Shown here piece after piece: positions 8,586 to 24,270 of a DNA stretch of 26,688 nt. The notes beneath the pieces were generated by a model that did no database searches, was not told the DNA's origin, and saw only the letters and a program-made list of their open reading frames with translations. Made by a program: the position numbers and the translations under genes. The stretch's first letter is position 1. Every line of letters starts with the position of its first letter. Origin of the DNA: a virus; IMG/VR virus record IMGVR_UViG_3300042541_000619, positions 1-26,688 of that record. One strand, given 5' to 3'.

Positions 8586-9114
8586 TATCGCTTTTGTTTC
8601 GTTTGTTTGTGTAGTCCATACCGTCATAATACCAATTACCAATACTTGACTTTCTTGCAGGTGTTACAGTTCCCGATACATAAGAATAATATTCGGGTAT
8701 TGTATTAACTGCTAACCATTTTTCCATTCTTTGTAAGTACATTTCAGCTTTAGACCTTTGGTTTTCAACTAAAAAATCCACCTCATTTTTTTCTATTGCT
8801 GTTCCGTTGCTTGGTGTATGTTTATATATTCCACCGTTGCTAACGTGGTACGCTCCGATTTTAAGGTATTCTAATGCGCTTTGATGAATTAAAAAAGGTT
8901 TAATATACTTTGTATGTAAAGTCAAATAATTACCCGCCAAATCATCGTTTTCAAAGTCTGTTTTAATCTTCTCATATAAAGTTTCGCCTAAACATTCTTC
9001 TAACTTTGAAATTTGAGCGTCTATAATACAAAACTTGTACCTGTCTACATCAATGTTCCCACCTAATAAAGTGCTTTCTGTTATCTCGTTATCGTTTAAT
9101 AAAATTGTTTCCAT
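8554..9114 (-). CDS. Head-tail connector-like protein (DUF6712-like)
   Basis: A 186-residue mostly helical protein with a segment at about 25-55 (DRYKFCIIDAQISKLEECLG then ETLYEKIKTD) and a Tyr/Trp-rich middle region. It resembles the connector-type proteins that follow the portal gene in Bacteroidetes phages, where a helical adaptor docks beneath the portal. It starts on the last base of the portal gene and so is coupled to it. The C terminus is unusually acidic (NKSDNDNDIDFGYW). Function is inferred from position and helical pattern. Confidence 0.5.
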   Translation of the reverse strand: METILLNDNEITESTLLGGNIDVDRYKFCIIDAQISKLEECLGETLYEKIKTDFENDDLAGNYLTLHTKYIKPFLIHQSALEYLKIGAYHVSNGGIYKHTPSNGTAIEKNEVDFLVENQRSKAEMYLQRMEKWLAVNTIPEYYSYVSGTVTPARKSSIGNWYYDGMDYTNKRNKSDNDNDIDFGYW

Positions 9115-10805
9115 TATTTACGGTAGTTTGGGTCTAATGACCAATAGTTATTGGAAGGCGAAGCTATTTGTGCTACTCTTACGTCGTTTTGCTCGAAGTT
9201 AGCTTCTTTACGCAAAGAAGGGTCTAAAGCATTTAATAATTCTCTTGCTTTTTTAGCCGTTATTTTATCGTTATTCTTTTTAATATAAATGTTTCTCATC
9301 CAAAAGTGCTTACAATTTACCCCACCTTTAAATAAAAATAAGTCGTAAGTATTAGCACCTCTCGGACCTAATCCTTTGTTAACTGCTTTCTTACTTGCTG
9401 AAACTATATCTTCTTTACGATAAATTAATTTAGATTGCACCATTTTACGACAAAATTCTCTTTCAGGATTTATATTACCTGAATAAGAATAACGTATTTT
9501 AAAAATAGAAGTATCTTGTTCGCTATCTTTCATTGGAAAATTAGAAGGAGCGTAAGCTAATTTAAAAGAAGTTTCTGAAATTGGGTCATCGATTCTATAT
9601 TCTCGTGAATCTAATAGTTCCCATTCGTTCTCGTCTAATTCTTCGCCTAATCCTAATAACTCATCCGCTAAAATATCGTCTGTATGTTCGTGTAAATCTT
9701 GCTTTGCTAATTGCGTAGGCTGTTCGCTTGTTGTTTTAGGTCTTAATGGAATAAAATCTAAATCAATATTAAAACCGTTTTGATTTAAAACAAACATTAA
9801 AGCATCTAAAATTACTTCCTGTTTTGGCTGTATAACATTTAACATCAATTCGTCAAATGCCACTTGCATTTCGTCTGCATTATTTCCAAATCCTGTAGCA
9901 TCTTTAATACCAAAAAGAATAGGCGAAGTTACCCTATGCGATAACATTATTTTTTGCATTGCATCAGCAGTTAAAAACTCGTATTGCTTATGCGCATCAC
10001 TTACAGTTAACGCTTCAATAGTAACGCTATTTTCTTTGTTATCGTTATAAGCTAAAACGAATTTACCTGCATTAGTGCTACCTGCTAAATTTTGTCTAAA
10101 TGAATCGAATATAGCTTTCTTTTGTTCTTCTGTTTTGTCAGCTCCATCGTTAAAATTAATAATATGACCAAACGATAAACCGTTTTTAATATGGTTAACA
10201 ACAAAATTAGAGTATTCTTCTTCAAAAACAGCATATGGCATTCCACTCAAGTAAGTCGGATCACTAAAATAAGTTTTGCCTACCTGATAGTCTGAAATTA
10301 TATAAATTGCTGAACCGTTTTTAATTGTATCAAAACCAAAGGCAGGAATTTGAATAGGCTCGTATTTTCTTGGTTGTGAAAAATCTCTTGAATACCAATA
10401 GCTTTTTATATCGCCATTCTCATCCATTTTATTAGGTACAATACAATTTTTTGGCGTGTGCTTAATTTGCATTACATTACCGCCTTTAAAAATTATCTCG
10501 ATACTTGCTTCTCCAAATAATGAATAATCCTGGCAAACGTTCTTTAAATCTTTTTTAGACAGTATTCTTAAAATGTCCGCAAATTGGATAGCCTTTGTGC
10601 TTTTTTGATTTGAAGTTAAACCTTTGCCGTAAATATATTGTGCATAAGCATCTATAATGGCTCTGTTGGTTGCGCTACCGTTATACCTATCAATAATCTC
10701 TTGGTAAAAACTATTTTTATCACCATTTAAAACAAAGTCTTTCGAAGCACTTTCTTTTATTTCAGGTCTTACATAGTTTGCTAATTGTAAAATCTCTATA
10801 CTCAT
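9114..10805 (-). CDS. Portal protein with C-terminal Cys/His extension
   Basis: A 563-residue protein. Residues about 30-350 fit a phage portal: an N-terminal region with NRAIIDAYAQYIYGKGL, and a long helical section containing a GFGNNADEMQ loop near 306 that resembles the portal motif before the stem helix. A linker near 355-430 leads to a separate domain with REFCRKM (C452), IYRKEDI, and GGVNCKHFW (C498, H500). This domain resembles MuF-like or other minor head domains, making it a portal fused to a head accessory domain. It follows the small 87-codon protein with a 4-nt ATGA overlap and precedes the connector gene. Confidence 0.75.
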   Translation of the reverse strand: MSIEILQLANYVRPEIKESASKDFVLNGDKNSFYQEIIDRYNGSATNRAIIDAYAQYIYGKGLTSNQKSTKAIQFADILRILSKKDLKNVCQDYSLFGEASIEIIFKGGNVMQIKHTPKNCIVPNKMDENGDIKSYWYSRDFSQPRKYEPIQIPAFGFDTIKNGSAIYIISDYQVGKTYFSDPTYLSGMPYAVFEEEYSNFVVNHIKNGLSFGHIINFNDGADKTEEQKKAIFDSFRQNLAGSTNAGKFVLAYNDNKENSVTIEALTVSDAHKQYEFLTADAMQKIMLSHRVTSPILFGIKDATGFGNNADEMQVAFDELMLNVIQPKQEVILDALMFVLNQNGFNIDLDFIPLRPKTTSEQPTQLAKQDLHEHTDDILADELLGLGEELDENEWELLDSREYRIDDPISETSFKLAYAPSNFPMKDSEQDTSIFKIRYSYSGNINPEREFCRKMVQSKLIYRKEDIVSASKKAVNKGLGPRGANTYDLFLFKGGVNCKHFWMRNIYIKKNNDKITAKKARELLNALDPSLRKEANFEQNDVRVAQIASPSNNYWSLDPNYRK

Positions 10806-11065
10806 ATGTTTGTAGTTGCGTAAGCTTTACCTCTGTAAAGTAAGTTGTCATTAGTATCATAAACCTCAAACTCAAAATTTTGACCTTCAGAAAAAGTATG
10901 CGTAAAATTAGCGGTTAAATATCCGTTTACATTAGTACAAGTAAGGTTATGAGTTGTTTCGGTTTGTCTTAATTCATTCCTTAAAACCATTGTCGCATTA
11001 CTCACGTATTCACGTGGTATAATTTGTAGTGTGTGCGTTGTATCGGTTGGATCAAATATCTTCAT
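10802..11065 (-). CDS. Small beta-rich virion protein (87 aa)
   Basis: An 87-residue protein starting MKIFDPTDTTHTLQIIPREY and made of alternating beta segments, like a single Ig-type domain. Short proteins with this opening occur beside head or portal genes in Bacteroidetes phages. It overlaps the portal start by 4 nt and begins the transcript after the hairpin terminator at about 11.1 kb. Likely a minor virion protein; exact role unknown. Confidence 0.55.
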   Translation of the reverse strand: MKIFDPTDTTHTLQIIPREYVSNATMVLRNELRQTETTHNLTCTNVNGYLTANFTHTFSEGQNFEFEVYDTNDNLLYRGKAYATTNI

Positions 11066-11070
11066 AACTA

Positions 11071-11106
11071 TTAAACGTTTTTTTTATTGTTTGGTATCAA
11101 ATAAAA
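11071..11106 (-). promoter_or_regulatory. Candidate upstream regulatory motif, copy 1
   Basis: Minus-strand TTGATACCAAACAATAAAA followed by ACGTTTAA, directly upstream of the gene starting at 11065. A closely similar block precedes the gene starting at 14192. It has no good TAnnTTTG box at normal spacing, so it may be a different (phage-specific) promoter or a leader element. This is inference from two copies. Confidence 0.35.
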
Positions 11107-11131
11107 AAGCGTACCGATTAAGATACGCTTT
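11101..11131 (-). terminator. Terminator after the 172-codon structural gene
   Basis: AAAGCGTA and TACGCTTT form a perfect 8-bp stem with a 10-nt loop. On the minus strand the stem runs into TTTTTTATTTG, a good intrinsic terminator. It separates the 172-codon gene from the portal operon. Confidence 0.8.
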
Positions 11132-11157
11132 AAAACAAAAACACTATGAAAAAAATA

Positions 11158-11676
11158 TTATGCAGTAACTACTTGTGCCGAAACTAAAGCTAATAAAGCT
11201 GTTTTGGCTGCACTTGAAAGAAACGGTGCAAAGTTATTATCTCTCGCTTCTAAAGCTAAAGTATATCCGCTCGCTTCTGTACTCATAACTCCTGTAGTTG
11301 CTTCAAGTCCTGAATCAATACCTACAGCTTTTACATTTCCGTTATAATCGTGGATAAAAGCTACTACTCTACCATAAAGTAAAGATTGCAATTCCACTTC
11401 AGTTTCTTTGCCTAATTTAGCTAAATTCAAAGCTAAAGCCTGAACAATTTCAATAGTTCTATTATCGTTGTTTACGGTTGCAGTTTCAATTAATGAATTA
11501 CCCGCACCTTTTACCTCATAACGAAAAACCTCTGTTAATCCAGCAGGTAAAGAAGCAATTTCTTGAGCGGATACCGTATAAGTATCGCCTGTATAAAGTC
11601 CAAAATCTACAAATCTAATTCCCGTTCTCGAATCTTTACACGGTAAAGTCCGACCTTTTAATATATCACAAGCCAT
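11158..11676 (-). CDS. Virion protein, possibly the tail-tube subunit
   Basis: A 172-residue protein beginning MACDILKGRTLPCKDSRTGI. It has a beta-rich core and a GYTLALEARDNNFAPFLSSA segment near the C terminus. The MACD..KGR..PCKD opening is a recurring signature in Bacteroidetes phages. It stands alone between two terminators directly after the major capsid gene, as expected for a highly made single-unit structural protein such as the tail tube. No tail-tube motif is decisive, so head decoration or stabilisation is an alternative. Confidence 0.5.
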   Translation of the reverse strand: MACDILKGRTLPCKDSRTGIRFVDFGLYTGDTYTVSAQEIASLPAGLTEVFRYEVKGAGNSLIETATVNNDNRTIEIVQALALNLAKLGKETEVELQSLLYGRVVAFIHDYNGNVKAVGIDSGLEATTGVMSTEASGYTLALEARDNNFAPFLSSAAKTALLALVSAQVVTA

Positions 11677-11692
11677 ATTTATATATTTTATT

Positions 11693-11720
11693 AAAAACCG
11701 CCCAAATTAATGAGCGGTTT
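11693..11720 (-). terminator. Terminator after the major capsid gene
   Basis: AAACCGC pairs with GCGGTTT (7 bp) around a 12-nt loop. On the minus strand it continues as TTTTTAATAAAA, an intrinsic terminator 11 nt past the capsid stop. Partial read-through would lower expression of downstream genes relative to capsid. Confidence 0.78.
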
Positions 11721-11730
11721 AAGTTATTGA

Positions 11731-12753
11731 CTATCCTACGTAAAGAACGTTGAATTTTTGATTAACAACGTGAGCGGCTAAAGTCATATTGTTTTTAAGG
11801 AACATATCTTCTCTGTTCAAAGCAATCTTGTCTAACTGCATAACATTAACATCTGAAGCTAAATCTGTAGCCCAAATCAAATGAGATTTTAAAGCAGCGA
11901 TCAAAACGTTTTCAGGAAGTGGAACGAATTCTACTTTCAAACCGTTAAAGTAAATATTCTCGTAAGCTGCGTCTGCGTCAAATGGTTTAGTGTAGTCAGT
12001 TGTTACATTGTTTGCTTGAGCAATCATTTGTTTAACTGATTTAGGAGCGTAAATGATTGGTTTTTCAGTACCATTCAAAGCTACAGCAGGAATAGCTGCG
12101 TAAACTTTGTCGAATTCAGCTTTTAAAACAGATGCAGTTAAAGTAGTACCTGCAACCTTTACACGAGTTCCTACTCCTGCAGTAGCTGAAGCGTTAGAGT
12201 CGTTATAAATCATTTTCACTAAAATACCATCTACTTGACTTGTAGTCAAAGCAGCAACTTTAGTTTTTTCAGCAGCACCTACTGAAGTATTAGCAGTTCC
12301 TGCAGTCAAAGCAGCTACAGCCGTTTTAGTTGCTGAAGTAGCACCATTCCAAAATTCATTTTCAAAAGCGTTAGAAATTTGTTTAGCGTATAAACCACCG
12401 ATAACAAGTTGTTCAAATTCGCTTGACATAATTTCCCAAGCACCTGGCTTCATATCTCTTTTAAAACGTGAGAATCTCAAAGTGTTAGGGTCAAACTCTT
12501 GATAAAATTGAACTTTTGTTGGAGTAACCGCTACATCAAAAGCAGTTAAAGAACCTGCTGAAGTTGGAACTCCTGAAGTATAAGCTTGTAAAGTTGCAGT
12601 TGCAGTAGCCTCTGTAAAAATAGTTTCTGCCTTAACATCTTCTTCAAATGTAACTAAAGCTTTTGCAATAGTGTTATTTTCAAATAATAATTCTTCTACG
12701 ATTGGCTCTGCTGCCTTTCCTCTGTAGTTAACTGAATTGTAAGTAATTGCCAT
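11731..12753 (-). CDS. Major capsid protein
   Basis: A 340-residue protein rich in Ala, Thr and Val. It is placed directly after the prohead protease gene (6-nt gap) and before a terminator. The N-terminal helical region is followed by FDVAVTPTKVQFYQEFDPNTL, a pattern seen in major capsid proteins of Bacteroidetes phages. A helical middle (FEQLVIGGLYAKQISNAFEN then EFWNGA) resembles the spine helix of HK97-fold capsids. Length and position fit well. No HK97 motif was tested computationally. Confidence 0.8.
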   Translation of the reverse strand: MAITYNSVNYRGKAAEPIVEELLFENNTIAKALVTFEEDVKAETIFTEATATATLQAYTSGVPTSAGSLTAFDVAVTPTKVQFYQEFDPNTLRFSRFKRDMKPGAWEIMSSEFEQLVIGGLYAKQISNAFENEFWNGATSATKTAVAALTAGTANTSVGAAEKTKVAALTTSQVDGILVKMIYNDSNASATAGVGTRVKVAGTTLTASVLKAEFDKVYAAIPAVALNGTEKPIIYAPKSVKQMIAQANNVTTDYTKPFDADAAYENIYFNGLKVEFVPLPENVLIAALKSHLIWATDLASDVNVMQLDKIALNREDMFLKNNMTLAAHVVNQKFNVLYVG

Positions 12754-12758
12754 AATTT

Positions 12759-13838
12759 TTATTTATTTTTTGTTAGTCTAAATTTTTCTAAAGCTGTCAT
12801 TTCTTCAAATGATTTTTCTTTAGCTGGTTTGTTTTTTGTTAATGAAACGATTTCTTTTTGTTCTTCTAATTTTGCAGTAAAATCAGCTTTCAATTCAGCT
12901 TTCATAGCTTCCAATTGAGTTCCAAATTCTTTTGCTAATTGGTAAAAAATTTCTTGCGTGTGTTTTTCACTTTTTACACCGCTTGGAGTTTCTTTTTCCA
13001 TTTCAGCAGGAAGTTCTTCTTCAGCTTCTTCAGCTTTTGCTTCTGACAATTCAGAAACTAAACCACCTGCAACGGTTAAAGTCATACCATTTTCAAGGAT
13101 GTACTCACCGTCAGGTAATGGCATAATATCTCCGTTCTCATTTTGGATAGTTAGCGGCATTCCTACTGCTAAAGTATCGCCCTCAAAGTCAATCGTCAAA
13201 GATTGGTCTTGAGTCATAACGCTACCAAGTACAATTTCTTCTTTCTTAATTAGAGAGGCGAAACCATCCTTTATAGCGGACAAAATTAAATCTACATTCA
13301 TATTCTCGGTTTTTAAATTAATACGTTCTAAATCAAAGAATCCATCTATGCTAAATCCTTTTACTTTGCCTGTCTTTACAAAGTCATTCCAAATCTCATC
13401 GTTATTTACTTTCATTGAAGCGAACCAAGTTCCAACTGGCTCGTTCATTCCGTATTTAACAGACTTATCGTTTACCTCATCTTCTTTGATCCAAGATTCA
13501 ACAAAAGTAACATCCTTAAGTTTTTGTTTCTCATCGTGTTCTAAAGTAGAAGCGTTTTGATAACCTTGTTCAAAAAAGTTTTCCATTGATAAACGAATAG
13601 TTTCAGCAGGAAAAACGATGTTAAACTCTTTACCGTTTTGGTTACGGTAAATTGGTTTATTTGGAATTAATACCGCACCTAAAAGAATCCTTTTTTCATT
13701 GTCAATAGCTTTTAATTGAATTTCCTTTTGTTCGCTTAATGCTATAAAATTAGATTCCATTGCAGGACTTTCAACTAATGAAATACCGAATACTCCTTCG
13801 GTTTCTTCTTTTTTAAATATTACGGTGTAAGTTTCCAT
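12759..13838 (-). CDS. Prohead protease (XkdF-like) fused to scaffold-like tail
   Basis: A 359-residue protein. Residues 1-170 resemble the XkdF-type prohead serine protease: an opening with ISLVESPAMESNFIAL, a candidate histidine H101 in ASTLEHDEK, and a candidate serine S163 in VKGFSIDGFF. The remainder is acidic and coiled-coil-like (SEAKAEEAEEELPAEMEKE and a Lys/Glu-rich stretch near 300-345), resembling an internal scaffold. A protease-scaffold fusion next to the capsid gene suits prohead assembly and maturation. It starts directly after the 117-codon gene. Confidence 0.72.
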   Translation of the reverse strand: METYTVIFKKEETEGVFGISLVESPAMESNFIALSEQKEIQLKAIDNEKRILLGAVLIPNKPIYRNQNGKEFNIVFPAETIRLSMENFFEQGYQNASTLEHDEKQKLKDVTFVESWIKEDEVNDKSVKYGMNEPVGTWFASMKVNNDEIWNDFVKTGKVKGFSIDGFFDLERINLKTENMNVDLILSAIKDGFASLIKKEEIVLGSVMTQDQSLTIDFEGDTLAVGMPLTIQNENGDIMPLPDGEYILENGMTLTVAGGLVSELSEAKAEEAEEELPAEMEKETPSGVKSEKHTQEIFYQLAKEFGTQLEAMKAELKADFTAKLEEQKEIVSLTKNKPAKEKSFEEMTALEKFRLTKNK

Positions 13839-14192
13839 TTATTGAAAAGTACTTGGTTCTTTAAAAGAGCTAATAGTATCGAAAATTTCTTTAGCTGTAT
13901 TTTGATTTTGTTTTAAAGCTGAATATCCGTTAATTGATTTAGGGTCAATTCCTAATTCTTTAGAAGATTTATCTACTTTATCTAGTAGTCCAAAAATAGG
14001 AGAAGTAGCTTTGTCTAAATTATTATAATTTAAAATCATTTTTTTGTATGGTGTGCTTGCTTTAGATAAATAATCTTGGTATTCTTTCCAAGAAGAATCA
14101 GCACTTTTTAAAGCTGTAACCATAGAATCATTAGCTTTTGCTAAATCATCAATCAAAGCCAACTCAAATTTAATCCCTTTAATACTTCCCAT
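13839..14192 (-). CDS. Hypothetical helical structural protein (117 aa)
   Basis: A 117-residue helical protein (MGSIKGIKFELALIDDLAKA at the N terminus, ending SSFKEPSTFQ), without recognised motifs, Cys residues or membrane span. It opens the head-gene transcript immediately before the protease gene with no intergenic base. It may be a small head or tail assembly factor. Its upstream region shares a motif with the region before the 87-codon gene. Confidence 0.5.
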   Translation of the reverse strand: MGSIKGIKFELALIDDLAKANDSMVTALKSADSSWKEYQDYLSKASTPYKKMILNYNNLDKATSPIFGLLDKVDKSSKELGIDPKSINGYSALKQNQNTAKEIFDTISSFKEPSTFQ

Positions 14193-14211
14193 AATTACTT
14201 TTATTTAATTG

Positions 14212-14250
14212 TTTAACGAAATTTATTTTTTTTGGTATCAATAAGTAAAA
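14212..14250 (-). promoter_or_regulatory. Candidate upstream regulatory motif, copy 2
   Basis: Minus-strand TTGATACCAAAAAAAATAAA and then CGTTAAA, upstream of the gene starting at 14192. It matches the block at about 11071-11106 (see that entry). It may be the start point for the head-gene transcript, which is cut off from the tail transcript by the terminator at about 14.75 kb. It overlaps the -33 region of the oppositely oriented moron promoter. Confidence 0.35.
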
Positions 14251-14265
14251 TTTATATTATATTTG
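14231..14265 (+). promoter_or_regulatory. Plus-strand promoter of the two-gene cassette
   Basis: TTTG, 23 nt, TATATTTG on the plus strand, consistent with the wide end of Bacteroidetes promoter spacing. The -7 box ends 23 nt before the ATG of the first cassette gene. It drives transcription opposite to all neighbouring genes. Confidence 0.65.
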
Positions 14266-14288
14266 TTTAAACAAAACAAGCAAAAAAA

Positions 14289-14534
14289 ATGGAAGAAATA
14301 AAAAGTAACGAGAGGTATTTAATTTTAAATAATTACAAAACATTTGACGAAATAGATTTATTTTTTTGGTATGATAAACTAACAAGAAGAATAAATTATT
14401 TACAACCTTTAATAAAAGAAATAGAATTAAAAAAAATGGATTTAAATATTATTTGTAAGCCATTAGCGCAAGAAATATTTGAAATACAACAATTGATAAA
14501 ATTTTTAGAACAATTTAAAATATACTTAAGATAA
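14289..14534 (+). CDS. Plus-strand cassette gene 1, unknown helical protein (81 aa)
   Basis: An 81-residue protein (MEEIKSNERYLILNNYKTFD at the start), rich in Ile, Leu, Lys and Glu and predicted to be largely helical or coiled-coil. It has no signal peptide, membrane span or known motif. It is one of only two convincing plus-strand genes in the window and is extremely AT-rich. A promoter lies upstream, and gene 2 follows 16 nt later. It resembles a phage moron product (host fitness, anti-defence or exclusion factor), but no function can be assigned. Confidence 0.65.
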   Translation: MEEIKSNERYLILNNYKTFDEIDLFFWYDKLTRRINYLQPLIKEIELKKMDLNIICKPLAQEIFEIQQLIKFLEQFKIYLR

Positions 14535-14550
14535 TTATAAAATTAAAAAA

Positions 14551-14733
14551 ATGGATTTAAACTTTATAGAGGTAACTTTAATAAATGGATGTAAATATAG
14601 TTTTAGAATAGAACGTTTAAACGCTTTTAGATATTTAGATATAAATAAAACAAGAATTTTTCTTAATAATAATGTTGATTATGATATAAATGAAAGTTAT
14701 GATGAATTTCTAAATAGAATTAAAAAAATATAA
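14551..14733 (+). CDS. Plus-strand cassette gene 2, FlbD-like small protein (60 aa)
   Basis: A 60-residue protein, MDLNFIEVTLINGCKYSF then RIERLNAFRYLDINK, TRIFLNNN and a closing ESYDEFLNRIKKI. The order (beta strand, turn, RIFLNN strand, then a charged ESYDE helix) resembles the small FlbD-like proteins found widely in Bacteroidetes phages and genomes. That is a fold resemblance; function is unknown. It ends just before a bidirectional terminator, closing the cassette. Confidence 0.6.
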   Translation: MDLNFIEVTLINGCKYSFRIERLNAFRYLDINKTRIFLNNNVDYDINESYDEFLNRIKKI

Positions 14734-14737
14734 AAAT

Positions 14738-14768
14738 AAAACCCTCGCTAATAACTAACGAGGGTTTT
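14738..14768. terminator. Bidirectional terminator between convergent genes
   Basis: AAAACCCTCG and CGAGGGTTTT make a perfect 10-bp stem with an 11-nt loop. T-runs follow on both strands (TTTTTT on plus; TTTTATTTTTATA on minus). It ends both the plus-strand cassette and the minus-strand tape measure transcript, so genes to the left need their own start point. Confidence 0.88.
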
Positions 14769-14773
14769 TTAAT

Positions 14774-16648
14774 TTAGCCACCGAAAGTAGCTGTTTTTAC
14801 TCTATTTCTGTCAAGTGCTTGGCTTGTTGTTACTGCTGAACTAACTACAAAAGCTTCTATTGGTTTATTTTGTTGTCCTGCTATTGTTTGCGCTAATTGG
14901 TTAGTACCGCTTTGCCCTACTATGTTAAATTGTGGCGGTGCTGGTGCTGATCCTCCGCCTCCTACTGCTGAACCTCCTCCGCCTGATTTCGGTGTACTCA
15001 TTATTTTTCTAATTTGCAAAGCTGAAAACGCACCCGCTAAACCTGCTTGTATAAAAGGGTATGCAGGAAATAAAGTTGTAATAGGCGATTTACTTGCAGT
15101 TGTAAATGCGTTTTGCGTTCCTTCTATTCCTGAAATAGTAGCTTGTGCAACTGCTACGCCTTTAGCAATATCGCTTCCCTCTCCTGCTATTTCAGCTACT
15201 AAATTCAAAGTGTTTTTAGCCAAATCTATTTTAGCATCGGAAACGGCTTTTTGTCTTTCTATTTCTTTGTCTGCTAATTCTTTATTTAAAGCATCATTTT
15301 GCATTGCTGCATCTGCTTGACCAAACCAATAATCTTGCTCGGCTTTTTTATCCGATTCTATTTTCTCATCTCTTAACTTTTGTTCAATTTCTTGCTGTTT
15401 AAGATTAAGTTCGTTTTTATCGTTTAGAAATTTAATCTCTAATTCTAACGTGCTTAATTTTTGTTTTTCTAAAATAGAACGCTCTAAATTATATTGTTCG
15501 GTTAATCTTTCTAATTCAGTTTTTCTAATTTCATCATTTGCTTTTTTAGCATTTTTAGCAATTTCTTGAGCTTCTTCTCTTAATCTTTTAGCTTTTTCTT
15601 TAGCTATTTCTTCCTTCTTATCTTTAGAAGCTTGTATCTCATCTTCTCTTTTAATTTGTTCGTTTAAAGAATCATTAACCTCTTTAACTACTTGAGCATT
15701 TTTATTTATATCATATTCAGTCCTTTTATCAGCTGCTTGTTTTTTAAAATCATTATATTGATCTTCTAACTCTTTTTTACGTTCGTTAGTCATATCACCT
15801 GCTTTTAATTCGGCTTTATAAACCTCATCAATAGCATCCATTTTACCTAAAATTAGATTTATTTCTCTATTTAAGTTTTGTTGTCTTGTTGCAAAAAGTT
15901 TTTCTTCATTTGCTCCTTGCGCTTCTAATAACTTTAAACTCCTTTCATTTTGAGAAACCAATTCGTCATTTAAAGAAATTGTTTCTTTTAGTTTATTATT
16001 TAAAATTTCAGCATTACTTGCACCTCCAAAAATAATTGATTTTAATTTATCAAAGTTTTCAATCAATAAACCAATACCAACAATTAACGCTCCGATACCC
16101 GTACTAATTAAAGCACCTCTTAAAGCTTTAGCCGCTAAAGTTGCTCCGTTCATTACAAAGGTTTGTATTGCGGTTGCTGCGGCTAATGCTTTTTGAAATA
16201 TAGCAGTATCTTTTATAGTTGCGCCTAATTGTTTAAAAGAGTCTATACTTTCTCCAACGGATTGAATCCCTTGCGAAATAGCCATTGCTGACTGAACTTT
16301 TAAAATAGCTTTCTCTACGTTTTGACTTTCTGAACCTAATAAACCAACTGCACCTTGAACGGCTGCAAATCCACCTGCTACACCTCCAAGCGTTGAAGTA
16401 AGTGCTTTAAATTTAGCATCAGGGTTAAAGGCATCGGTCAAACTTTTTGCATCGCCAATAGCATCTTTTAACTCGGCTGCTCTCTTTGCCGCTTCGACTG
16501 CTTCTTTAGAAGTTGCTCCGAATTTTGCACTTAATTCATTAACCTCATTTTGCGCTTGTCTTAATTGCGTTTTAAGATTGGCTACATTTTTAGTCGTTGC
16601 CTCTACGTTGTCAACTACTTTTACATTAACTACCTTTTCGATTGCCAT
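14774..16648 (-). CDS. Tape measure protein
   Basis: A 624-residue protein. The N terminus has coiled-coil segments with Ala/Lys/Glu heptads (NLKTQLRQAQNEVNELSAKF), followed by a hydrophobic region at about 175-200 (ALISTGIGALIVGIGLLI). A long charged coiled coil runs to about 480, with a second hydrophobic region and a Gly/Ser-rich linker (SGGGGSAVGGGGSAPAPP) near 555-575. This is the usual layout of a phage tape measure. At about 0.15 nm per residue it predicts a tail near 90-95 nm, typical of a siphovirus. It overlaps the tiny upstream gene by 19 nt. Confidence 0.87.
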   Translation of the reverse strand: MAIEKVVNVKVVDNVEATTKNVANLKTQLRQAQNEVNELSAKFGATSKEAVEAAKRAAELKDAIGDAKSLTDAFNPDAKFKALTSTLGGVAGGFAAVQGAVGLLGSESQNVEKAILKVQSAMAISQGIQSVGESIDSFKQLGATIKDTAIFQKALAAATAIQTFVMNGATLAAKALRGALISTGIGALIVGIGLLIENFDKLKSIIFGGASNAEILNNKLKETISLNDELVSQNERSLKLLEAQGANEEKLFATRQQNLNREINLILGKMDAIDEVYKAELKAGDMTNERKKELEDQYNDFKKQAADKRTEYDINKNAQVVKEVNDSLNEQIKREDEIQASKDKKEEIAKEKAKRLREEAQEIAKNAKKANDEIRKTELERLTEQYNLERSILEKQKLSTLELEIKFLNDKNELNLKQQEIEQKLRDEKIESDKKAEQDYWFGQADAAMQNDALNKELADKEIERQKAVSDAKIDLAKNTLNLVAEIAGEGSDIAKGVAVAQATISGIEGTQNAFTTASKSPITTLFPAYPFIQAGLAGAFSALQIRKIMSTPKSGGGGSAVGGGGSAPAPPQFNIVGQSGTNQLAQTIAGQQNKPIEAFVVSSAVTTSQALDRNRVKTATFGG

Positions 16649-19133: not shown

Positions 19134-20665
19134 TACAATATATCGTTTAAAAGGTTAAAGCTATATTCGAAGTCCATCGAGTATTGGATCAATTTATTAT
19201 TTAATTTAGTTTTCTTTTCAAATGTATTTTTTAGCAAATTAACTGGTAATACTGTTCCGTTTTCTTCAAGATAAATAAACTCACTTAACATTAACTCGGT
19301 AAATAATGCATTATAATTTTCAGGTATAAAATCAGTATTTACAGTAACCTTTTCTTTTCCGTTTACATTATATGTTTGTTTAACGTGTTTATTTAAGGCG
19401 TAACTGCCATAATTAGAAATTAAACCGTTATAACTTTCGTTAGTAAAGTCTTGAGTCTTTTTGCTTAATTTATTAAACGGAATTGTTTGCCAAAACCCAA
19501 ACTTATTTTTAAAAATGCAATTCATTAAAGGGAATTTACATTCGTCTTTAACTGTAAATTTATGGTCATAAGTAACATCTCCAAAACCATAAGCAAAAAC
19601 CACATCAAAAGAAGTAGAACCATCTATATAATTAGCTACATTAATATAACCTATTTTTTGGTTAGAGTAGTCTTGACTAAATGTAAACGGTACGTTAATA
19701 CCATTTGCAGTAATCGTTGTTAAACCTTCAGTAATAAAATATAAAGGGTAGTCGCTATCGTTGTAAATAATATGATTTGTAATATTACTCAAAATATTTT
19801 GCTGAAATTCTATAGTCGATAAGCTATCTACTTCGGTATGATATTTAAAACCATCTACAGCTAATACTGTTTGATTTGCTTGGTATTGTTCCGCACCTGC
19901 TAAATAAATCTTTGCATCGATATAAACCCAAACGCTATCTAATAATGAAGTAGTGAACGCTCCGTCTATTCCTATACCGTTGTAATTACTTTTTACGTAA
20001 TCATTAACCAATTTATGAATATCAAAATTAATAGCACCTTGACCAACTTGAACAACTGACTTGCTTAAATTATAATTAGAAACAGCAGGTCTATCGTCTA
20101 TTTTATGACCTCGATATATAAATACTTCGGCTGTAATTTCGTCGAATGTAATACCAGGAGTTAGTTTAAAATGATACGGACTTCTTGAAAGTATTATTTG
20201 TTCGTCTAATACTTCAGGAACTATTAAAGCAGGTATTGTATAAGCTTCGGTTGTATAAGTTAGCCAAGCTGATGTATGCGGTGTTTGGTCTGGAAAATTA
20301 ACAAACTCAAAAGTGTCCGTGCTACTATTACTTCCCCAAATTAACTCAACTACATTTCCAACTATTGAAACCTCGTAATAAAAGTTATTAAAAAAATAAG
20401 TTTCAACTGCGAGTTGATATGTTAGCCATAATTTAAAATTATTCGCAAAATTGTTAATATTTGCGCCCTTTACTATTTCGTTATTAGCAGGAGAATCCTG
20501 ATTTGGTAAAGTTAAAAGATAAGGATCAGTTCCATATTCAACTGTAGGAGTAAAAATCACTATCTTTTCAAATAATGTTACACCGTCTTTTTTAAGTCTA
20601 AAGTTTCTTTGGTTGTACCCTGTAATTGTACTTGTCGGAAAAGTAAATGTTATTTTTTGTCCCAT
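19133..20665 (-). CDS. Tail structural protein (510 aa)
   Basis: A 510-residue beta-rich protein (MGQKITFTFPTSTITGYNQR at the start). Near residues 390-415 it has a segment ECKFPLMNCIFKNKFGFWQT followed by IPFNKLSKKT. Proteins of this type lie beside tail genes in Flavobacteriia phages, and a distal-tail or baseplate-like role is likely. The start and stop each abut the neighbouring genes by one base. No enzyme motif or signal peptide is seen. The specific role is unknown. Confidence 0.55.
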   Translation of the reverse strand: MGQKITFTFPTSTITGYNQRNFRLKKDGVTLFEKIVIFTPTVEYGTDPYLLTLPNQDSPANNEIVKGANINNFANNFKLWLTYQLAVETYFFNNFYYEVSIVGNVVELIWGSNSSTDTFEFVNFPDQTPHTSAWLTYTTEAYTIPALIVPEVLDEQIILSRSPYHFKLTPGITFDEITAEVFIYRGHKIDDRPAVSNYNLSKSVVQVGQGAINFDIHKLVNDYVKSNYNGIGIDGAFTTSLLDSVWVYIDAKIYLAGAEQYQANQTVLAVDGFKYHTEVDSLSTIEFQQNILSNITNHIIYNDSDYPLYFITEGLTTITANGINVPFTFSQDYSNQKIGYINVANYIDGSTSFDVVFAYGFGDVTYDHKFTVKDECKFPLMNCIFKNKFGFWQTIPFNKLSKKTQDFTNESYNGLISNYGSYALNKHVKQTYNVNGKEKVTVNTDFIPENYNALFTELMLSEFIYLEENGTVLPVNLLKNTFEKKTKLNNKLIQYSMDFEYSFNLLNDIL

Positions 20666-21222
20666 TATTCTTTTAATGTAAATTTTAAAAATGATTCTAC
20701 GTCTAATCCATATGATTTTACTAATTCGTCAGGTAATTTCTTAAAACCATCTTCAAAAGGTTTGCTAAAAAATCTTGTCGGCTTTGTTCCTTTAGTCCAA
20801 ATTGACCGTATTATTAATTGTGCGGTTTGTTCATAACTCATAAATTTACCTGTAGAAGTTCCATCTGCTTTCCTTTGTCTAAATTGGAATCTTCTTGCTT
20901 TTACCCAACCTCTAATACCCTCCGTTAATCCTCCAGGCTTACCTGTACCGCTTCCAAACTTAAAAGGACTATTTGGCGCACGTTGGCTGCTGAATTTACC
21001 TTTAACTCCTAAATCTAAAAATTTACCGTGATCTGCCATCTCGATATAGTTCTCAATGGAATTCGGGTTTACTTTTGATGTAGCTTTTAAAGAGTCTGTT
21101 AATTTTTTAGTAACGTTATTTGTACCATACTTTCCACCCTTTAAAAGGTTCTCACGTGCTTCTTTAATTACAAAAGTATTAAATGCTTGTAAGGTTGTTA
21201 ACGTTTCTTTTTTATCTAACAT
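20665..21222 (-). CDS. Head-tail joining / tail-completion protein (HK97 gp10-like)
   Basis: A 185-residue protein: N-terminal helical part, then a basic region with PNSPFKFGSGTGKPGGL and RGWVKARRFQFRQRK, and a C-terminal helical part with PTRFFSKPFEDGF. The size, basic centre and position next to a tail-terminator-like gene resemble HK97 gp10-like neck or tail-completion proteins. It overlaps the upstream gene by 7 nt and the downstream one by a base. Assignment is by pattern, not by a strict motif. Confidence 0.5.
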   Translation of the reverse strand: MLDKKETLTTLQAFNTFVIKEARENLLKGGKYGTNNVTKKLTDSLKATSKVNPNSIENYIEMADHGKFLDLGVKGKFSSQRAPNSPFKFGSGTGKPGGLTEGIRGWVKARRFQFRQRKADGTSTGKFMSYEQTAQLIIRSIWTKGTKPTRFFSKPFEDGFKKLPDELVKSYGLDVESFLKFTLKE

Positions 21223-21659
21223 ACCGTAACCTCATTTGTTATTGACAATTGTAAGTCAACCGTCCAACCATCTAACGTATCTTTAAACTCATAAATCACT
21301 GGCAATAGACTTGGCTCGTTTAAAAGTTCAATATCTAAATTGTTTCTTTGTAATTTCAAATCCATTATTAATCGATTTAAGACAGCGAAACAAGTATTAA
21401 GGTTATCGAGTTCATTATCATTTTTTAGAAACTTATCTGTACTCATTTTCTTTGAAACGTTGCGAATATCTAAGACCTGAACCGTAAAATTAAATATAGA
21501 AGTACCTTGACCGAAAGAACCATTAGTTACCATTAAATGAGCCATTGGAAAAAGATCCTTTTTATTTTCAGGTGCTTCTCCGTGTACTATGGTATTAACA
21601 TCAATATCGTTTTCGAGTTGTGTCTTTAAATAATTGATAACTTTATAAAAACTATTCAT
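21216..21659 (-). CDS. Tail-terminator-like protein
   Basis: A 147-residue protein with an alpha/beta opening (MNSFYKVINYLKTQLENDID), a central beta region (GTSIFNFTVQVLDI) and a final hairpin (GWTVDLQLSITNEVTVC). This is the shape of tail-terminator (minor tail U-like) proteins, which cap the tail tube. It overlaps the chaperone extension by 8 nt and the gp10-like gene by 7 nt. The call is from length, strand order and neighbours, so moderate. Confidence 0.5.
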   Translation of the reverse strand: MNSFYKVINYLKTQLENDIDVNTIVHGEAPENKKDLFPMAHLMVTNGSFGQGTSIFNFTVQVLDIRNVSKKMSTDKFLKNDNELDNLNTCFAVLNRLIMDLKLQRNNLDIELLNEPSLLPVIYEFKDTLDGWTVDLQLSITNEVTVC

Positions 21660-21900
21660 ATTTCTTTATCTGTTTGTTACTTTCATTTGCCAAATCGACT
21701 TTAAACTCTAAAAACATTAGAAACTCGTGTAGTCGTAATTTAGTCGCTCTTTCAAAATCGAAGATATTTCCGTTACTAACGGTAAAAATTGATTGATACC
21801 AACTCCATTTTGCGCTAAAGCTGTTTCCAAAAGTATCTTGTTTTTCGGTTGTGCTAAATAATCCTTCATAGATATCAACAATTCGCTGCTTAAATTCCAA
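21652..21900 (-). CDS. -1 frame extension of the chaperone gene (82 codons)
   Basis: An open frame in -1 relation to the 218-codon gene. It has no ATG near its start; its first usable codon is TTG, which is the codon reached by a -1 slip on the run of nine T. After a charged start (EFKQRIVDIYEGLF) it contains AKWSWYQSIF and FERATKLRLHEFLMFLEF, which recall the WGWY segment of tail-chaperone extensions. If translated by frameshift, the fusion is 158 + 82 = 240 residues against 218 unshifted. Both frames look protein-like over the shared 184 nt. Confidence 0.7.
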   Translation of the reverse strand: MEFKQRIVDIYEGLFSTTEKQDTFGNSFSAKWSWYQSIFTVSNGNIFDFERATKLRLHEFLMFLEFKVDLANESNKQIKKYE

Positions 21901-22373
21901 AAAAAAAGCATAGAACCTAAAACAATTTCTAAATTTAGTTTATTAAAATCGGTGTGCTCTCCTTTATAATCCTCTATATTATAAAGGTTTTTCATTTTAT
22001 TGGCAATAGGTCTGTATAAAACATTCATCGCTTTAGAATATGTTTCTTCGCTCTTTAAATATGTTTCCAAATCGATGTACTCTCCAGCAGGAATGTCGTC
22101 TAAATTAGGAATAAAACCATATTCTTTGCCATTATAAATAAAACGCTGTATAAATCTTGGTTGTTGTTTTAATACTTCGCTTATTTGTAATACTATCTCG
22201 TTAAAATCTTTCAATTCTATATTTTGTGCATCAGGTACTGAAATATCGCAAAAGATGCTAACCATTGCTAAAGAAACAAATGAATCACTTTGGTTTTCTT
22301 TAATAACTTTTTGAAACAATAAAAATTGTTCTAATCTTATATCGCTTAATGATGTGGGTATTTTAATCTTCAT
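21717..22373 (-). CDS. Putative tail-assembly chaperone, zero-frame product (218 aa)
   Basis: A 218-residue helical protein: MKIKIPTSLSDIRLEQFLLF then a central RFIQRFIYNGKEYGFIPN, and an ending with NGVGINQFLPLVTEISSIL. Proteins with this order, including the NGVGI...F segment near the C terminus, recur in Bacteroidetes phages. It starts 15 nt after the terminase stop. At codons 156-159 the run CTT TTT TTT TGG allows a -1 slip into the overlapping 82-codon frame, the classic arrangement of phage tail-assembly chaperones (G and GT). A chaperone role is inferred from this arrangement. Confidence 0.65.
   Translation of the reverse strand: MKIKIPTSLSDIRLEQFLLFQKVIKENQSDSFVSLAMVSIFCDISVPDAQNIELKDFNEIVLQISEVLKQQPRFIQRFIYNGKEYGFIPNLDDIPAGEYIDLETYLKSEETYSKAMNVLYRPIANKMKNLYNIEDYKGEHTDFNKLNLEIVLGSMLFFWNLSSELLISMKDYLAQPKNKILLETALAQNGVGINQFLPLVTEISSILKERLNYDYTSF
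21899..21908 (-). other. Slippery run for -1 frameshifting (C followed by nine T)
   Basis: Minus-strand CTTTTTTTTT followed by GG. In the zero frame it is read CTT TTT TTT TGG, and a -1 slip on TTT TTT gives TTG GAA, which opens the 82-codon frame. It coincides exactly with the first codon of that frame. A homopolymer sequencing error is the alternative explanation, but then one of the two apparently coding frames would be left unexplained. Confidence 0.7.
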
Positions 22374-22388
22374 AATTATATAACGTTT

Positions 22389-23684
22389 TTATCCTAAAAT
22401 GGTTTGATTCTTTTTCTTTAATTCAAAGTAATACCTCATCATAATACTATCCCAATGATCGGGAGAACGTCCAATATTTGCTTTAATAGTATCTTTAGAT
22501 ATAATACCTAATCGAGTATCCTTATCAATTTCTTTTTGTTTTATTTGCTCCATTTCTTCGCTAACCAAATCACGAATTAAAGAATTATTATTTTGTTCTC
22601 CAGCTTCTCTATTTTGTATTTTTTTAGCCATTAAAATACTACATTGGCTTTTTAAATTTTCATAGTTTTCTCCCTTTAATGCTCGGCTATTATTTACAAA
22701 ACCTTCACATCTTAACATATCTACAAGTCCACCACCTACTCCATCTTCATCGGCAATAGTTTGACTATTTGGAATAATATATTTTGCCTGTAATTTTCGA
22801 GCCTCCTCAAAAGCTTCTACAATTGTGTTTTTAGCAAATACTTTCACGTCAATACACTTCCATTCATTCCAAACCCTAAAAACGGTTGTATCCTTACCTT
22901 TACGAGCAACGTCAATAGTTAAATAATGTTTGCCGTTTTCGTTTAAATGTATTGGATTAAAATAGTCTGTAATAGCATCCATATCAATTAACGTACTTGG
23001 ATCGTCATCATATTCCCAATTACCATAATAAAGTCTTTGTCTTGCATTGTTGTCTAATTGCAATAATGATTTTAAATAGCTTGGATGTAAGTGTGGATTA
23101 TCTTGTGGCAATGCTTGTATGAACTTTCTATAAGGTTTTAAAGTTCCATTTTTTGAAGGTTGGTAAAACTCTTTATAAGTCCAATTTTTTGCAGGATTTA
23201 AAGTACCTAACATTTTTGGCATTAAATCAAATTCAGTTAATTTATATCTAATCCTTGACTTTACAATTTGCCACGCTTTATAAACTATCTGATTGCACTC
23301 ATCTATAAACGCTCCTGTAATTTCTAATGAACCTAAACTATCATAGTTAGGGTCTGAAGGATATAAAAATAAATCTTTTAAAATTATTTCGCTACCATTA
23401 TGAAAGTAAATTATATTTGATTGTGCGTTGTAATTAAATTCGTTTCCTATATCTAATTTACTTGCTAATTCAAAAAAAGAATTTAAAGTAGTTTCTTTTA
23501 ATGTTTTTAATTTTGCTCTACCCATTAACCACCTACTACCTGGATATTTTTGGCAATTATGAATTAACCATAAACAACCAAAGGCGGATTTACCGCCTCC
23601 AGCAGCACCACCATAAAGAACCTCCTCGGTAATACTATCGTTTAAATAAAATGTAGCGTGTTCTTGTTTAACTAATAGTTTCAT
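22389..23684 (-). CDS. terL: Terminase large subunit
   Basis: A 431-residue packaging ATPase-nuclease. Walker A is GGAAGGGKS (25-33) and Walker B GAFIDE (124-129), with a coupling-type TLNP at about 161. The RNase H-like nuclease shows D258 in LTIDVARKGKD, D312/D314 in ADEDGVGGG, and SPDHWDSIMM (D409, H410, D412) near the end. All expected elements are intact and the length is normal. It overlaps the small-subunit candidate by 17 nt. It drives DNA into the prohead through the portal and cuts the concatemer. Confidence 0.95.
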   Translation of the reverse strand: MKLLVKQEHATFYLNDSITEEVLYGGAAGGGKSAFGCLWLIHNCQKYPGSRWLMGRAKLKTLKETTLNSFFELASKLDIGNEFNYNAQSNIIYFHNGSEIILKDLFLYPSDPNYDSLGSLEITGAFIDECNQIVYKAWQIVKSRIRYKLTEFDLMPKMLGTLNPAKNWTYKEFYQPSKNGTLKPYRKFIQALPQDNPHLHPSYLKSLLQLDNNARQRLYYGNWEYDDDPSTLIDMDAITDYFNPIHLNENGKHYLTIDVARKGKDTTVFRVWNEWKCIDVKVFAKNTIVEAFEEARKLQAKYIIPNSQTIADEDGVGGGLVDMLRCEGFVNNSRALKGENYENLKSQCSILMAKKIQNREAGEQNNNSLIRDLVSEEMEQIKQKEIDKDTRLGIISKDTIKANIGRSPDHWDSIMMRYYFELKKKNQTILG

Positions 23685-23937
23685 CGGGATTTATTCCTGC
23701 ACCTAAATTAATAACGTTTTGGATTTTTTCTCCCATTGAAGTTATATCGGTTTGTTGTTTAGGTTTACCAAAATAATATTCAAAAAACATTTTAACCGCC
23801 CAATCTTTACCATCTTCAATTGCGTATCTTAAAGCGTGAAAAGCCGAATCCTCTAATGGACTCAGCTTCTCAATTAAATTTTGTTCTTCTGCTTTACTTT
23901 TTCTTCCTGCTCCTTCTCTTTTTCCACCTAATGCCAT
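23668..23937 (-). CDS. terS: Putative terminase small subunit
   Basis: An 89-residue protein. Its N terminus (MALGGKREGAGRKSKAEEQN) carries an AT-hook-like GAGRK stretch, followed by a helical region (ALRYAIEDGKDWAVKMFFEY then YFGKPKQQTDITS). The gene lies directly before the large terminase with a 17-nt overlap. It is short for a typical TerS but matches the small TerS-like proteins of Bacteroidetes phages. It would recognise phage DNA and load the large subunit. Confidence 0.65.
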   Translation of the reverse strand: MALGGKREGAGRKSKAEEQNLIEKLSPLEDSAFHALRYAIEDGKDWAVKMFFEYYFGKPKQQTDITSMGEKIQNVINLGAGINPDETIS

Positions 23938-23964
23938 ATTGAAAAAAATTGATTATTCATTTGT

Positions 23965-24270
23965 TTATTTAGAATTATCGCAAAGTACTTTTAAATCATT
24001 TATAACTGCTTTGCGTATATTTATATTAAACGTATCAATAGTTAAATTGGTATTAAAAGAATCATTATAAATTTTTATTAGTTCCATATCTGATAAACTA
24101 TCTAACTTTGCAACTAACTTAATTTGCGTACTATTTAAAGCGTTAACTTGTTTAAATGGGAATAGTTTATTCAAAATGTTTTTTCGTTTCTCACAACCAA
24201 CGCACGGTTTTATCCCGACTGCTTCAGTTAGTTTTGCGATTGAATCTCCAATTCCTTTACTTTTTGACAT
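23965..24270 (-). CDS. Conserved phage protein before the terminase (101 aa)
   Basis: A 101-residue protein opening MSKSKGIGDSIAKLTEAVGI and then KPCVGCEKRKNILNKLFPF, with a CxxC pair. This GIGD..KLT...GI.PC..C..RK..LNKLFPF pattern recurs just upstream of terminase genes in Bacteroidetes phages. Two cysteines alone do not make a zinc site. It overlaps the end of the sigma-like gene by 43 nt, consistent with translation coupling. Function unknown; a packaging accessory is likely from position. Confidence 0.55.
   Translation of the reverse strand: MSKSKGIGDSIAKLTEAVGIKPCVGCEKRKNILNKLFPFKQVNALNSTQIKLVAKLDSLSDMELIKIYNDSFNTNLTIDTFNINIRKAVINDLKVLCDNSK

Follow-up and report, generated by a model that had tools for sequence, protein, structure and literature searches.

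The window analysed here is a stretch of 26,688 nucleotides of viral DNA (IMG/VR record IMGVR_UViG_3300042541_000619, positions 1 to 26,688). On its minus strand are two long open reading frames of 218 and 82 codons which, according to the list of open reading frames, overlap by 184 nt in -1 relation, as an earlier note on this DNA had described. The first of these (21717 to 22373, minus strand) encodes the zero-frame product of 218 amino acids, here called G, which possesses a conserved N-terminal domain (residues 1 to 158) and a C-terminus of 60 amino acids past a run of nine T residues. The second (21655 to 21900, minus strand; 21652 to 21900 including the stop codon) encodes an extension of 82 codons (LEFKQRI...KKYE), here called T. 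The T9 run (21907 to 21899, minus strand) has the zero-frame context ATG CTT TTT TTT TGG and is the sole A/T run of at least nine on either strand of the window. Inside it lies the candidate slippery heptamer T_TTT_TTT (21906 to 21900, minus strand), where a -1 slip would join residues 1 to 158 to the 82 codons of the second frame, giving a predicted fusion product (GT) of 240 amino acids. Between the run and the stop codon of the zero frame, the stretch read in both frames amounts to 179 nt (21720 to 21898, minus strand).

The 82-codon frame lacks an ATG near its start, as also stated in the earlier note, the first one in the window being situated 60 codons past the run. The same note had the frame opening exactly at the run, which requires correction; the open stretch begins 13 codons further upstream, with just a mechanical TTG 'start' to be found within the run itself. 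An independent start of the -1 frame was considered as a general mode of expression and rejected, as in most clusters of relatives this frame has no usable early start codon and no ATG before about codon 50. At its other end, the -1 frame stop codon (21654 to 21652) is overlapped by the start of the next gene (21659) at the junction ATGAATAG (21652 to 21659, minus strand). Among the relatives, 37 of 39 clusters have the following ATG at -14 to 0 nt relative to the stop of the -1 frame and at 15 to 123 nt beyond that of the zero frame, which indicates that the unit naturally ends with the -1 frame.

Relatives of the gene were collected from phage records, from six scans of a viral contig collection and from a single scan of GTDB genome contigs, with loci ranging from 99% down to approximately 28% identity and located on public phage contigs, in two phage isolates and on two host contigs. 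From bacterial genomes, two loci alone were obtained in the GTDB genome contigs. Profile HMMs for both parts were used to score the frame relation, and clustering at 70% identity resulted in 41 clusters that are less than 70% identical to one another. The two parts stand in -1 relation at every locus possessing both (263/263). The length of the run was measured directly at 262 loci, being T9 in 176 and T10 in 86, and in every measured relative and all 41 clusters it is uninterrupted and never shorter than nine. It begins at codon position 2 of the zero frame in 258 of the 262 loci and at position 1 in the other four, with T_TTT_TTT being in phase either way. Two loci (L099 and L123) appeared at first to be exceptions and were found to have a T10 slightly upstream. 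When the T part was aligned by itself, its variability precluded a pattern scan. At all 262 loci a TAA or TAG terminates the third (+1) frame 6 nt (T9) or 8 nt (T10) past the run; this stop was rejected as evidence of two-way slippage, as the protein sequences read in the zero and -1 frames already imply it.

Homopolymers are prone to error, and the records of the Nonlabens phages discussed below list two separate genes at this place, so that an error of sequencing or assembly at the T run, or two genes overlapping by chance, has to be considered. This explanation is regarded as extremely improbable and was excluded on the conservation of the run, its phase and both frames in relatives. The frame relation and the run recur in loci originating from many projects and from isolates, both frames are under selection (see below) and the second frame is without an early start codon in most clusters. 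Shared systematic homopolymer errors are conceivable in metagenome contigs, but the frame relation and the isolates speak against these also. The T9 of the window, on which the proposal of the earlier note depended, is thus not an error.

The pattern of substitution strongly supports selection on both frames across the overlap. In a codon-position analysis of 16 gap-free relatives, variable sites before the run fall mainly on position 3 of the zero frame (0.81 versus 0.21 to 0.30). Within the overlap they shift to position 2 of the zero frame, where the -1 frame has its wobble base (0.48 versus 0.25 and 0.32), and past the zero-frame stop this same position varies at its full rate (0.71 versus 0.10 and 0.20). 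Both the codon positions and simulations show that changes silent in the -1 frame are reduced within the overlap relative to the region after the zero-frame stop. With simulations constraining the -1 frame only, zero-frame changes were significantly fewer than expected in four of seven pairs, borderline in one and not significant in two, these seven pairs not being independent. In addition, the probability of the zero frame staying open by chance, given the -1 protein and local codon use, has a median of 0.003 per cluster. The summed log10 over the 41 clusters is -97, a figure which overstates independence as the clusters share ancestry.

The distance from the run to the zero-frame stop is 47 to 251 nt over the clusters, with a median of 166 nt and a value of 20 nt in one single locus. 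In 39 of the 41 clusters this zero-frame tail measures 107 to 251 nt, mostly near 165 nt, while some lineages have short tails of 20, 47 and 74 nt, indicating that the tail is not essential everywhere. These short tails, along with the two simulated pairs without extra constraint, would agree with an explanation in which the -1 product alone is of importance, with the C-terminus of the zero frame as a by-product. Given that the tail is long and open far beyond chance in 39 of the 41 clusters, and that silent -1 changes are lowered in the overlap, such a by-product is thought unlikely. Real dual coding of the shared stretch, as put forward in the earlier note from the protein-like appearance of both readings, is accordingly upheld by the codon-position switch, the simulations and the openness of the zero frame, and homologues were found to conserve both frames. 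In published tail-chaperone frameshifts the zero frame after the slip averages 26 nt and 36 nt (PMC10885494), compared to which long dual coding appears to be a trait of this family, a few short lineages aside.

Directly upstream of the frameshift gene and 15 nt from its 218-codon frame is the gene for the terminase large subunit, TerL (22389 to 23684, minus strand; PF04466, E-value 2e-12). The next gene downstream (21216 to 21659, minus strand) encodes a 147-amino acid protein which matched no named family and which we infer to be tail-terminator-like. It is followed by a gene (20665 to 21222, minus strand) for a protein of 185 amino acids that is considered tail-completion- or neck-like from the matches of its relatives, two of eight matching HK97-gp10_like (best E-value 1e-3) and four of eight matching phrog_5 'tail completion or Neck1' (best E-value 1e-4). 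Five genes downstream of the frameshift gene is a tape-measure-like protein of 624 amino acids (14774 to 16648, minus strand; phrog_167 tail length tape measure, E-value 5e-4), with genes encoding proteins of 147, 185, 510 and 785 amino acids in between. The earlier note had placed the gene right after the terminase and several genes away from the tape measure; this is accurate, with the number of intervening genes being four. No other frame-shifted pair was found beside the tape measure among the open reading frames of the window.

This arrangement is conserved among clusters with enough sequence, TerL being upstream in 35 of 36, the 147-amino acid gene being next in 39 of 39 and the 185-amino acid gene coming after it in 35 of 37. 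Extra small genes are present between TerL and the frameshift gene in many clusters (gaps of up to approximately 2 kb), and a tape measure was found in all eight of the larger records tested. When one relative (L008) was compared with positions 20665 to 23684 of the window, its terminase proved to be of a different family and its cassette to be 77–100% identical, suggesting that the frameshift gene is linked to the tail genes and not to the terminase. Membership of a tail-gene module is thus indicated by the conserved order of the cassette, the tail-completion-like neighbour, the downstream tape measure and the exchangeable terminase. The presence of two terminase families before nearly identical tail genes in L008 and the window is also an apparent case of packaging-module exchange in its own right. 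Elsewhere in the window (9114 to 16648) the gene order is unusual, with the tape measure, a protease (12759 to 13838), a likely capsid protein (11731 to 12753), a possible tail tube protein of 172 amino acids (11158 to 11676) and a portal protein (9114 to 10805). The region 5801 to 8497 codes for a protein of 898 amino acids, with weak matches of its N-terminus to T4 gp9/10 and to a PHROG of the baseplate wedge.

The gene probably makes both forms of a tail-assembly helper protein. The reading favoured here, to which we assign a probability of roughly three in four, is that of one gene with two decodings, working like the G/GT tail-assembly chaperone of phage lambda with two alternative C-termini. 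Most expression would end at the zero-frame stop to give G of 218 amino acids, while at the T9 a fraction would shift to the -1 frame and give GT of 240 amino acids with its different end domain of 82 amino acids. Being in excess, G would cover the tape measure, and the major tail protein would be brought in through the T domain, following the G/GT logic of tail chaperones (reviewed in PMC5009743). The anatomy of the predicted products agrees with this class, namely overlapping frames that are invariably in -1 relation together with a conserved T_TTT_TTT slip site.

Tail chaperone genes are usually positioned directly before the tape measure and after the major tail protein. The frameshift gene adjoins neither the tape measure nor the major tail protein gene, being four genes before the former in the window, and in other clusters it follows TerL and precedes the 147- and 185-amino acid genes. 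As it does not have the place directly before the tape measure, it is not filed here as a proven member of the chaperone class. Known tail chaperones share little sequence. In Pfam, NCBIfam, PHROGs and the PDB, no named chaperone family was matched by G, GT or T, and the frameshift gene matched no Pfam or NCBIfam family at all. G matches phrog_32199 (E-value 1e-14) and the T extension matches phrog_38404 (E-value 5e-4), both of these being of unknown function. An AlphaFold model of G has a pLDDT of 81, with values of 45–72 for the part past the run. When used in Foldseek, this model finds gene 38 of the Nonlabens phages and unnamed phage proteins, as well as weak matches to two proteins annotated as tail assembly chaperone (E-values 0.2–1.4), and a fold search of the PDB gave no clear match. 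The fold search with the model of T (pLDDT 71) produced one weak unnamed match. As regards the identification as a tail chaperone in the earlier note, the anatomy and the neighbourhood support it and homology to a named chaperone does not.

The position right behind the terminase, with TerL upstream in nearly all clusters, and the missing homology to a named chaperone could also suit a frame-shifted phage protein with two products and a different function, such as head completion or packaging. This is judged improbable, as the frameshift gene is retained together with the downstream cassette when the terminase is replaced by another, its neighbours resemble tail completion proteins, and a -1 fusion of such a size is typical of tail chaperones. 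With the chaperone reading retained, the gene resembles lambda gpG/gpGT and the frameshifted chaperone class in having a first product and a -1 fusion carrying a short extra domain, encoded by one gene in the tail setting of a long-tailed phage. It differs from that class in that no sequence similarity was found here, in its location behind the terminase and four genes before the tape measure, in having a T9/T10 run as slip site and in the approximately 165 nt of zero frame past the slip against averages of 26–36 nt (PMC10885494). Also, unlike lambda gpG/gpGT, the zero-frame product keeps a long C-terminus that is under selection.

Two features of the T run bear on how the slip occurs. The -1 shift at the run, proposed in the earlier note as a slip of the ribosome, is strongly supported by comparison of the relatives; a ribosomal slip is an assumption of that note, and the two features point towards RNA polymerase. 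Ribosomal slippage is still somewhat favoured, whereas slippage of RNA polymerase, alone or in addition, is a serious possibility at rather less than even odds. In the latter case one extra U would be present in some of the mRNA through slippage on the T9/T10, and the same two proteins would result. The join has sequence features of both: an in-phase heptamer of the form X_XXY_YYZ (T_TTT_TTT in the measured relatives) for the ribosome, and an unbroken A/T run of about nine or more (41/41 clusters) for transcriptional slippage.

The first feature is that the run is never below nine in the measured relatives, and it is at this length that many bacteria begin to show selection against slippery runs (PMC1088944). 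The second concerns the second Phe codon, whose wobble base is a T in all 31 informative clusters even though a C would be silent in both frames (P 0.004, most cautious estimate), while control Phe codons of the same gene are TTC in 21 of 65 cases. In E. coli both U_UUU_UUC and U_UUU_UUU are efficient ribosomal motifs (H_HH.U_UU.Y; tetramer U_UU.C > U_UU.U; PMC4066793), the hosts here being flavobacterial; that the silent C is never used, although U_UUU_UUC slips efficiently on E. coli ribosomes, argues for RNA polymerase. Further points in its favour are that A/T runs of at least nine are depleted in neighbouring genes, with one seen against approximately 16 expected and T7 being depleted in all phases (214 genes, 41 cluster representatives, expectation from synonymous shuffling), and that no downstream stimulatory RNA structure was found. 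The RNA downstream of the run folds no better than shuffled sequence (10 relatives, pseudoknot-free folds, z-scores 0.05 to 1.6), and neither covariation nor compensatory pairs were detected there. Some ribosomal frameshift sites do work without a stimulator.

Against RNA polymerase slippage is the fact that the shifts described so far in tail chaperones are ribosomal (PMC5009743). In addition, the run keeps to the X_XXY_YYZ phase in all measured relatives, all of its T residues but that one wobble base are explained by the amino acids of both frames together with the heptamer, and replication errors could also explain the avoidance of long runs. The gene is similar to known transcriptional slippage genes with nine A/T (PMC1088944, PMC5009743) in its unbroken T run of at least nine at the frame join, and in the conservation of this run beyond coding need at one base. 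It is unlike them in its setting of a phage tail cassette and in a run that also fits a ribosomal heptamer. A combined proposal, put forward as tentative and rather doubtful, is that Bacteroidetes phages possess a large family of so far unannotated tail chaperones whose two proteins, with alternative C-terminal domains encoded by the same 165 nt, would be made in a ratio set by RNA polymerase slipping on T9/T10 and not by ribosomal frameshifting.

The gene family is present in hundreds of phages, where it is currently listed as hypothetical, and it may now be given a testable name. It adds a frameshift gene with unusually long dual coding, in which one DNA stretch would supply two selected protein ends, and the invariant T9/T10 run makes it a clean natural case for separating ribosomal from RNA polymerase slippage. 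Annotators of Bacteroidetes phages may expect a fused product behind the terminase gene. Direct homologues are found in Nonlabens phages P12024S and P12024L (genes 38/39 and 40/41, 28–31% identity), with the same T9, -1 relation and neighbours. The annotation of these phages lists each frame as a hypothetical gene of its own, and the overlap is 74 nt only.

Cellulophaga phage phi10:1 and Flavobacterium phage 11b are also Bacteroidetes phages and have terminases 70% and 58% identical to that of the window. Both have two short genes before the tape measure, and these gene pairs displayed no similarity to the frameshift family. In phi10:1 there is an unannotated frame of 124 amino acids (23870 to 24244) in the slot of the missing gp85, before gp86 and the tape measure. 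In Flavobacterium phage 6H (approximately 9900 to 10927, minus strand), gene 10 shows a weak fold match to the family (Foldseek E-value 4e-4, TM 0.3), and between gene 10 and gene 9 of this phage there are additional open frames that look like protein but lie in other phases, which would fit one or two changes of frame.
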